A stretch of DNA of 43,811 nt from Bacteroidales bacterium (GTDB taxonomy: Bacteria > Bacteroidota > Bacteroidia > Bacteroidales > UBA7960), in contig SKVW01000083.1 of NCBI GenBank assembly GCA_007129255.1, forward strand, positions 1-43,811. The letters are read 5' to 3'. Each line of letters begins with the position of its first letter. Positions within the stretch are counted from its first letter, which is position 1. The position numbers and the translations under genes are program-made. The notes below the pieces were generated by a model, which was not told where the DNA came from, ran no database searches, and was given only the letters and a program-made list of their open reading frames with translations. Below, piece by piece: positions 23,440 through 31,213 of the stretch.

Positions 23440-25089
23440 TTATTGCTTTTCTCCTTCTTTCTGCTTGAAATAATCTTCCATTACTTCCTTAAAATCCTTC
23501 ATGGTCATATCGTACTGGGGCGTAAGGGAATGTTTTCCGGGGAAGTTTTCCATATGCAGGGTGCTGGTTGGGAAGGCGAAGCGTACCCCTAGTTTTTCAG
23601 CCAGGCGGACGACTTCAATAAGTACTTCATGGCGCGCTCTCAGCTCTTCGGGCCAGGTAGGTACCGCAAAGAAGATATAAAACATGATCTTCAAAGAGAA
23701 GTCACCCATTTCATTAAACTCAACGATATAAAAGTCTTTGCGGGTTTGGGGGTGGTTTTCCACAATTTTGCGCAGGCCTTCCACAAACACTTCAATCAGG
23801 TCGGGGGGGGTGTCGTAAGTAACGGCAATGTGCATAAAAAAGCGGCGGAATCTGCGCAGGCCATGGTTGTCGATGGTGGAATCGGCCAGTTTGCCATTGG
23901 GTACATAGGTCAGGGAGTTTCTGAAAGTGCGGATGCGTGTGGAGCGAAAGCCTACTTCTTCTACGGACCCATCGATTTCTCCGCTGGTGATCCAATGGCC
24001 CACCGAAAAGGGCTTGTCGATAAAGATCATCAGTGAGCCAAAAAAGTTTTTCAGGGTATCCTGAGCGGCCAGGGCAAGGGCCAGTCCGCCGATGGAAAGA
24101 CCGGCCAGCAGGGCCGTAATGTTCACATCCAGGTTTTGTAAAATAAACAAACCCCCAATAACCACCACAAAAACCCTCAGTACCTTGCGGATCAGGGGCA
24201 CTACATGGTTGTCCAGGCTGGAGTCACTTTCTCCGGCAAGTTTTTCCAGGTAAAGGGAAAACACATCCACCAGCTTGTAAAATACCAGGGTGGCAAAAAA
24301 AGGCAGGATGGCCCGGAAAGCATAGTTAAAATATTTGGCCACTTCGGCCGGCAGCTGTAGAATGGGAAATACCACCATGATAAAAATAAACACCACAAAA
24401 AGACTCAGGGGCTTGGCTACAGGCAAAAGGTAAGGCCTTACAAGGCGGTCGTAACCCATCTGGCTGGCGCCCCGGTAAAGCACCTTGCTGAAAAGGAAAG
24501 TAAGCAGTTTATGCAGGAGAAAACTGAGCAAAATAATCAGGAGAATTCCTACATGCTGCCACAAATAGAGGCCGGCAAACTCATGGGTGCCGGTTCCGGG
24601 CATCATTTTTTGTAATAGCTCCGCACCAAAAGGAAAAACTTCTGCATGCAACCCGGGAATAACTTCCAGGCTGTACCGGCTATACATCCATTGGTCATTG
24701 TATTTTTCCAGGTAAATCTCCGGCAATTGGGAAACCGGCACAAAGCGATGTTCATCGGTTAGGGTATCGCGATAATTTGGGTCCTGAGGTATGGTAGCCA
24801 TATCCACATAATAACCCCTTCCATCCAACACCTGCTTAAGCCTGATGGCAAGATCTTCAGCTTCCTCCTGCTCAATGTCCGGGTGGTTAAAAGGCATGGC
24901 AGCCTTTTCGGGCTCATAACTTTCGGGTTGTAAAAAATACAAATGGGTATGAACAGCATCAAAAGGAGTGGACAAATCGGCTTCTTCCCTTGCTTCCTCC
25001 TGATTTTCCGGGCTGTTTGCCGGACTTTGGGATGGGAGGAACCAAAGCATGCAAAAAAATAAAGCCGGCAAAAAGATCTTTGAGTTCAT
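23440..25089 (-). CDS. Mechanosensitive ion channel (MscS family) with N-terminal extracytoplasmic extension
   Basis: AAQDTLKNFFGSLMIFIDKPFSVGHWITSGEIDGSVEEVGFRSTRIRTFRNSLTYVPNGKL is the MscS pore-exit/beta domain. Start chosen at the ATG preceding signal peptide MNSKIFLPALFFCMLWFLPSQSPA. Confidence 0.92.
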   Translation of the reverse strand: MNSKIFLPALFFCMLWFLPSQSPANSPENQEEAREEADLSTPFDAVHTHLYFLQPESYEPEKAAMPFNHPDIEQEEAEDLAIRLKQVLDGRGYYVDMATIPQDPNYRDTLTDEHRFVPVSQLPEIYLEKYNDQWMYSRYSLEVIPGLHAEVFPFGAELLQKMMPGTGTHEFAGLYLWQHVGILLIILLSFLLHKLLTFLFSKVLYRGASQMGYDRLVRPYLLPVAKPLSLFVVFIFIMVVFPILQLPAEVAKYFNYAFRAILPFFATLVFYKLVDVFSLYLEKLAGESDSSLDNHVVPLIRKVLRVFVVVIGGLFILQNLDVNITALLAGLSIGGLALALAAQDTLKNFFGSLMIFIDKPFSVGHWITSGEIDGSVEEVGFRSTRIRTFRNSLTYVPNGKLADSTIDNHGLRRFRRFFMHIAVTYDTPPDLIEVFVEGLRKIVENHPQTRKDFYIVEFNEMGDFSLKIMFYIFFAVPTWPEELRARHEVLIEVVRLAEKLGVRFAFPTSTLHMENFPGKHSLTPQYDMTMKDFKEVMEDYFKQKEGEKQ

Positions 25090-25278
25090 GGTTTTGCTTT
25101 TTTGGGATTGAAAACGAAAGGGGTTCATTTGCAACCGCCTTCCGGCATCAAAAATACAAATATTGATCAATGATGGCAAAAATTGAAGATGAGCGCAAAG
25201 ATTTGCTGCAGATTTAATAACAAAAAGGGTTAGGTGCAAAAACCCCTTTACAAAACCGCAAAACCTTTAGGCGTTCCT

Positions 25279-30479: not shown

Positions 30480-31213
30480 CTGCGCTGATATTCTTTCTGG
30501 TGGGTATAGGATTGTTTTTCCTGCTGCGGTTAATCTCCCGGGTATTGGGATCGGTTTTGCGCAAGGAGCCAATGCGGGCCTACTTTTTGAAGACTTTTCC
30601 GGTGGTTGAAATGGCCCTGTGGGTTGGTTTTATTTTTTGGGCGGTGGACAGTATTTTCCAGGACTTTTTTTATTACAACCTGCTCATGAGTGTGATGGTG
30701 CTTATCCTGTTGCTAGCTGTTTCCTGGTTTTTATTCCGTGACTTTTTTGCCGGCATGGTCATCCGGTCTGAAAACGCCCTGGAGCCCGGACAGTATTTTA
30801 AAACTTCCTTTGTGGAGGGGAAGATACTGAATCTGGGAATCCGCAGCATGGAACTGGAAACCCTGGACGGGGAAAGGGTAAAAGTACCCTACTGGCGCTT
30901 AAACAACCAATTGTTGAATTTGCCTCCCGGACAGGAAAAAAGCTACAGCCATACCCTAACCCTCAAAATGCCCAAAGCCGGGAAGCCGGCAAGGCTCAAA
31001 AACCAGATCCTTGCAGAGCTGAACAACATGCCGTGGATCATTTCGGGCTACCCGCCCATAGTGAGCATATCTTCCGAAAGCGAAGAGCAGTTTCTGGTGG
31101 AAATAAGGGTTTACGTAATGCGTGAGGAGCACCTGTTTCTGGTGGAGAAAAACATCCGCGACTTTATCCGCCACCACATGAGTTTCACCAAAGAAGAGGG
31201 TGAATGGCAATAA
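30476..31213 (+). CDS. MscS-like small membrane protein
   Basis: N-terminal TM segments then FRDFFAGMVIRSENALEPGQYFKTSFVEGKILNLGIRSMELETLDGERVKVPYWRLNNQLL, resembling the MscS beta domain; ATGA overlap with the upstream gene. Confidence 0.75.
   Translation: MTALIFFLVGIGLFFLLRLISRVLGSVLRKEPMRAYFLKTFPVVEMALWVGFIFWAVDSIFQDFFYYNLLMSVMVLILLLAVSWFLFRDFFAGMVIRSENALEPGQYFKTSFVEGKILNLGIRSMELETLDGERVKVPYWRLNNQLLNLPPGQEKSYSHTLTLKMPKAGKPARLKNQILAELNNMPWIISGYPPIVSISSESEEQFLVEIRVYVMREEHLFLVEKNIRDFIRHHMSFTKEEGEWQ

Follow-up and report, generated by a model that had tools for sequence, protein, structure and literature searches.

A contig of a Bacteroidales bacterium (SKVW01000083.1) carries a gene in which a cotransporter and an ATPase are joined, with an MscS-type gene on either side. 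Which of these genes form a unit, and what would such a unit do? The window, by which we mean the whole stretch of DNA analyzed, spans 43,811 nucleotides. The sequence-only reading of it had proposed a self-contained turgor or volume regulation module in which solute-release channels are paired with a carrier for salt uptake or efflux and an ATPase. The layout on which it relied holds: both genes flanking the transporter-ATPase fusion match PF00924 (5.2e-22 and 2.2e-07), the divergent intergenic region, put at roughly 215 bp, measures 215 bp from the ATG at 25089 to the start of the fusion ORF at 25305, and the small downstream gene is indeed coupled to the fusion, by a 4-bp overlap (ATGA, 30476-30479). 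The features of the locus are the following.

23440..25089, minus strand: divergent MscS/YnaI-type channel with a signal peptide and an N-terminal extension (MS_channel_1st, 2nd, and 3rd in Pfam)
25090..25304, no strand: intergenic region common to both divergent genes
25305..30479, plus strand: CCC-helix-AAA fusion of 1724 aa, a single ORF
25305..26594, plus strand: SLC12/CCC-type transmembrane (TM) domain of the fusion, residues ~1-430
26595..27374, plus strand: SLC12-type cytosolic C-terminal domain, residues ~431-690
27552..29414, plus strand: long helical region linking transporter and ATPase, residues ~750-1370
29442..30179, plus strand: AAA+ ATPase domain, residues ~1380-1625
30222..30476, plus strand: C-terminal winged-helix-like domain, residues ~1640-1724 (limits approximate)
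30476..31213, plus strand: SMS, a small MscS-fold protein of 245 aa with three TM helices

The divergent gene lies in an ORF at 23440-25239 on the minus strand that matches, besides PF00924, the Pfam families MS_channel_1st and MS_channel_3rd, and residues ~309-567 of this ORF match YnaI/MscS structures (E ~4e-43). Its start is most likely the ATG at 25089, which opens a signal peptide (MNSKIFLPALFF...), and the gene has both the MscS domains and the Gly/Ala pore helix. It is adjoined at 22187-23347 by genes for an EncFtn-like ferritin cargo (PF22277, 1.9e-40) and then an encapsulin (PF04454, 2.2e-87), a pair also found beside the divergent MscS gene in several close relatives. On the far side of the locus, a gene for a MORN-repeat protein (31220-32779) converges with SMS at a distance of 6 bp, and a homologue adjoins SMS in many relatives. 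Elsewhere the window encodes a Na+/H+ antiporter (12915-14333; PF03553, 3e-67) and, at 4264-6312 and 37725-40433, proteins whose C termini bear type IX secretion signals (Por_Secre_tail; CHU_C).

The fusion is genuine: it is a single open frame of 1724 codons, kept at full length in dozens of genomes, with homologues of this length in relatives and in other phyla. Alignment with homologues suggests that an in-frame TTG at 25329 is a likelier start than 25305. One locus that resembled a natural split between transporter and ATPase (L163) was dropped; its homologous frame is continuous except for one in-frame TAG (L163:7958), which is an assembly error or the mark of a pseudogene rather than a natural gene split.

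The N-terminal part of the fusion has an SLC12-type TM fold and is a relative of the Na-K-Cl cotransporter of animals. It matches AA_permease (2e-39), SLC12 structures (E ~1e-66), and TIGR00930 (3.7e-106, below the curated cut-off of 953 bits for that model), and a phmmer match to KCC4/NKCC1 chains runs through the cytosolic C-terminal domain until residue ~691. We compared it with the Na+, K+, and Cl- sites of NKCC as described in PMC9784483 and found the NKCC-type coordinating residues for all three ions. The Na+ site (A283, S286, and S287), P206 and T209 of the K+ site, and Y357 of the Cl- site are identical in 68/68 long homologues; the K+ site tyrosine, Y113, is identical in 67 of them and falls in a gap in the remaining one. 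NKCC1 residues W222, which is Leu in the fusion family, and N220, which is Ala, Thr, or Ser, are described as backbone contacts (PMC9784483). Where the carrier had been left undefined between salt uptake and efflux, these sites point to Na-K-2Cl import.

The remainder of the protein is the ATPase part with its helical link. AlphaFold predicts long helices (pLDDT mostly 80 to 90) for the linking region, and a PDB fold search returned no match to that part. The following domain matches AAA_16 weakly and, by Foldseek, the AAA+ folds of ORC/Cdc6, RuvB, and TnsC (E ~5e-6), while secondary structure and matches of the Cdc6/Orc1 and RuvB types mark the winged-helix-like C terminus. The AAA+ motifs consist of a Walker A (GERSSGKSS), a Walker B (IIINDLELWWER), a sensor residue (N1538), and R1576-H1577. 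At the position of the Walker A Lys, 65/68 long homologues have Lys and the other 3 have Arg; the Walker B Asp, D1502, is present in 68/68 but lies in the motif with which loci were sought, so that its count carries a selection bias. D1502 is followed by Leu, and 16/68 homologues have Gly in place of E1504. Since the Walker B Asp has no evident conserved catalytic Glu beside it, ATP hydrolysis by this module is uncertain.

Matches to the fusion at E ≤ 0.001 were present in 49 of 61 genomes of relatives, weaker matches being permeases that share the transporter part only. We merged the relatives' neighborhoods with 80 loci from GTDB genomes by unique C terminus, which gave 98 loci, 97 of them evaluable. 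In 93 of the 97, SMS is the next gene 3' of the fusion, most commonly at a gap of -4 bp (92 by script, plus L157, where the MscS-fold gene is an overlapping longer ORF), a count in which the SMS-recognition models were built from part of the loci later scored. The pattern DL[EG]LWW[EH][RK] served to find the GTDB loci; the conservation of this motif is therefore inflated, and one subfamily is perhaps favored. Four loci have no adjoining SMS, and for two of these (L109 and L059) a good SMS match lies on another contig of the same genome. Bearers of the fusion are found in Bacteroidota and in records titled Calditrichaceae, Calditrichota, Delongbacteria, Latescibacterota, Ignavibacteriaceae, Enhygromyxa salina, and Deltaproteobacteria. 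At 83% identity, L088 is the nearest relative with a title; it comes from a Bacteroidales MAG whose label, CSSed165cm, presumably refers to soda-lake sediment. In one genome (G052), an SMS-like gene adjoins an MscS gene at a site with no ATPase (L238:6397-8219), and the fusion is on another contig without SMS.

Could the small gene be the partner of the transporter? We dropped this assignment when cotransporter loci without the ATPase were used as a control: none of 34 has an SMS or MscS neighbor. The control comprised 35 listed loci, among them one obscured by a longer antisense ORF (L242) and one that is a fragment of a fusion (L256); in 33 of the 35, the transporter stands alone with clean flanks. 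Across 73 pairs, distances between SMS proteins correlate with distances between helix-AAA regions (r 0.90, with 0/2000 permutations as high) and more weakly with those between TM parts (r 0.71), in a Mantel-type comparison uncorrected for species phylogeny. Where a genome has two paralogues of the fusion, each SMS copy resembles its own paralogue's clade (distance of 0.45 within clades and 0.78 between them). As judged from these distributions and distances, SMS goes with the ATPase and not with the transporter.

The ATPase also occurs without this transporter. In a phylum-wide sample, 65 of 399 Bacteroidota genomes have homologues of the helix-AAA region. Those examined are mostly proteins of ~1000 aa or ~450 aa followed by a true MscS gene. 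A ~1500-aa form has an N-terminal CPA exchanger (PF00999, 2.6e-22 to 8.5e-20 in three of four tested, with no match in the fourth) and, in other Bacteroidota (L198-L203), stands upstream of an MscS-fold gene, TrkH, and TrkA, the Trk pair of L203 being confirmed by Pfam. At two loci, the gene for a ~800-aa form precedes an SMS-like gene and one for a CPA exchanger. Profile matches indicate that the region is homologous across these forms: the helix-AAA profile matches the ~1000-aa transporter-less form (E 1.9e-53 over 925 columns) and the exchanger-fused form (2e-39), and the AAA part of the ~800-aa form also matches (2.9e-23). By our own count, an MscS-fold gene adjoins the ATPase loci of the phylum sample with L204 as the sole exception; at L073 and L079, none was seen, and the gene at L079 is cut by the contig end.

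What kind of protein is this constant neighbor? SMS had been credited with an MscS beta domain, and it has more than that. Its PF00924 match exceeds the Pfam cut-off, and its AlphaFold model (pLDDT 88) has three TM helices, a beta domain, and a C-terminal alpha/beta domain, a complete MscS-like fold for which Foldseek returns YbiO, MscK, YnaI, and MscS (E ~1e-10). The pore helix departs from this family. Measured as the fraction of Gly, Ala, and Ser in the 21 residues that lead up to the conserved TM3 Asp/Asn, SMS scores 0.20, against 0.43 for the divergent MscS protein, 0.37 for the partners of transporter-less ATPases, and 0.40 at two loci with reversed gene order. Partners linked to TrkH (0.18) or to an exchanger (0.19) resemble SMS. 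In units that include a transporter, the MscS-fold partner has lost the Gly/Ala-packed TM3a helix; in units without one, it has kept it. Given a pore helix without the MscS packing, SMS is probably not the solute-release channel that it had been taken for.

In an AAA tree made by a quick method, the SLC12-fused and ~800-aa forms split from the others (SH-aLRT, 99). Because the exchanger-fused form is placed on the opposite side of this split, transporter coupling with pore loss occurs on both sides of the tree; this amounts to a few independent events at most and is no statistical proof.

The explanation that we favor, and to which we give an even chance, is that the unit imports Na-K-2Cl under the control of an ATP switch and that its MscS-fold subunit has a sensing or regulatory role and not one of solute release. 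It starts from what was observed, namely, the fusion, the co-inheritance of SMS, the homology of the helix-AAA region to transporter-less units that adjoin MscS genes, the conserved sites, and the loss of the SMS pore helix; from these we infer the direction of transport, the control by ATP, the physical contact between the proteins, and the stimulus. The core would be two genes on the same transcript, a Na-K-2Cl-type importer fusion and its three-TM MscS-fold partner. By way of its cytosolic domain and a long helical arm, the importer would be linked covalently to an AAA+ ATP switch resembling ORC/Cdc6. SMS, no longer a canonical pore, would sit beside the transporter and report membrane tension or cytoplasmic crowding or ionic strength to the AAA+ module. 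Depending on whether ATP was bound, this module would set the activity of the transporter through the helical arm. At low turgor, K+, Na+, and Cl- would enter; once turgor was restored, uptake would stop. The near-constant presence of SMS behind the fusion points to a widespread means by which a membrane sensor would control salt uptake. SLC12 proteins are dimers, MscS proteins are heptamers, and AAA+ proteins are often hexamers, and these oligomeric states may fit poorly together.

SMS might instead be a working if unusual channel gated by the AAA+ module, making a pump-and-leak pair in which the cotransporter brings salt in and SMS releases it on down-shock. The MscS-like fold of SMS is complete, and since the partners of transporter-less units retain a canonical pore helix, the ancestral partner of the ATPase may have been a real channel. 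We nevertheless think this unlikely: SMS and the TrkH- and exchanger-linked partners all lack the Gly/Ala packing (0.18-0.20 versus 0.37-0.43), and, outside the window with its two PF00924 genes, the genome has another three.

The gene across the intergenic region bears on a second alternative. Only in the closest genera does the divergent MscS gene lie next to the fusion, and we dropped it as a core part of the unit. In other loci, the slot opposite the fusion is occupied by TrkA/TrkH (L043, L044, L101, and L117) or by a CPA-type Na+/H+ exchanger (e.g., L045, L102, L119, L139, L142, L146, and L159); Pfam confirms six of the slot exchangers and the Trk pair of L043. The occupant varies, and in many loci no gene of a cation or osmotic type was found in the slot while SMS stays. 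Since Trk genes or an exchanger fill the slot elsewhere, the neighborhood concerns cations and osmosis, and the divergent MscS gene itself is outside the unit. Neighborhood conservation, which the sequence-only reading had named as its check, therefore divides its proposal: a conserved unit (93/97) in surroundings of CPA, TrkH, and TrkA genes stands, and the divergent channel as a member of it does not. The AAA+/winged-helix part could be tethered to the membrane and bind DNA to regulate the divergent osmotic gene, instead of controlling transport allosterically; its nearest folds are the winged-helix AAA+ proteins ORC/Cdc6 and RuvB, the intergenic region is shared with the divergent gene, and cation or osmotic genes recur in the slot. 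This reading strikes us as quite improbable given that the slot gene changes, or is not found, where SMS persists and that SMS distances track the helix-AAA region. Winged helices in AAA+ and STAND proteins also serve as protein-binding parts.

AAA+ proteins often remodel their partners, and this module might assemble, remodel, or turn over MscS-fold proteins, the transporter being fused to it so that they are assembled together. The ATPase does stand beside MscS-fold genes in every layout seen but one locus. Its nearest folds are initiator- and RuvB-like, however, and matches of the Clp/p97 type are weaker. In several transporter-less homologues (L072-L079, L174, L209, and L210), the Walker A Lys is replaced by Val, Ile, Leu, or Ala, and most such homologues still keep the MscS neighbor; because the Lys is gone there, ATP binding may be unimportant in these proteins. 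Such losses, together with the poor conservation of the catalytic Glu, suit an unfoldase badly, and we regard this role as very improbable. An anti-phage or other conflict system with a membrane effector is scarcely credible: an ATPase with a membrane protein is a common defense layout and one exchanger-fused homologue has a sub-threshold match to IteA (NCBIfam), but PADLOC gave only one weak match (E 0.099), searches of plasmids and phages gave no match to the module, the locus occupies a stable spot near housekeeping genes (glycyl-tRNA synthetase and polyprenyl synthetase) in close relatives, and linkage to K+ and Na+ transporters recurs.

TrkH, KdpA, and Kup were not found in the genome that carries the window, which could be an assembly gap; with an assembly 95% complete and a genus-mate that has TrkH, we set aside the idea that the fusion is the genome's only K+ importer. 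Among 37 genomes of the family, TrkH is found in most, and KdpA and Kup are found in none.

More speculatively, the ORC-like AAA+ switch and the MscS-fold sensor could be the portable core of a general bacterial osmotic controller. Without a transporter, this core would gate a real MscS channel; on at least two occasions, it would have been coupled to a cation transporter (SLC12, or CPA with TrkH/TrkA), the MscS partner giving up its pore and keeping only sensing. We consider this possible but doubtful. Control of NKCC-like transporters by cell volume is a long-standing question, and the unit makes one solution to it directly testable in bacteria. If the importer explanation is correct, a fold of channels has been put to new use as a sensor, which operates an ATP switch attached to a transporter, the unit is a tractable bacterial model for the coupling of SLC12 cotransporters with turgor sensing, and an ATPase family present in 65 of the 399 sampled Bacteroidota genomes acquires a role.

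We found no description of the module in the open-access literature, and none of the Pfam, NCBIfam, and PADLOC models searched describes the ATPase family as such. What appears to be new is the gene module; every component family is already known, and the mechanism is a proposal. The fusion shares its TM domain, cytosolic C-terminal domain, and ion-site residues with the SLC12/CCC family (NKCC1, the KCCs, and the CCC of Methanosarcina acetivorans), to which it adds a helical-AAA+-winged-helix extension of ~1000 residues and an obligate-looking MscS-fold partner gene; the bacterial CCC-only relatives, of ~745 aa, lack both. SMS has the three TM helices, beta domain, and C-terminal alpha/beta domain of the MscS superfamily (MscS, YnaI, YbiO, and MscK) but differs in its bulky pore helix and in overlapping an ATPase-transporter gene. 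Like AAA+ proteins of the ORC/Cdc6, RuvB, and TnsC types, the fusion has an AAA+ fold followed by a winged helix and keeps the Walker A motif, whereas its family is joined to transporters or lies beside MscS genes, carries a DLELWW signature, and has a weak Walker B Glu. The closest likeness in working is to the Trk/Ktr systems, in which a cytosolic nucleotide-binding part, the RCK protein TrkA, controls a K+ transporter; the fusion is not a member of that group and differs from it in its unrelated ATPase fold, its covalent fusion, and its MscS-fold partner.
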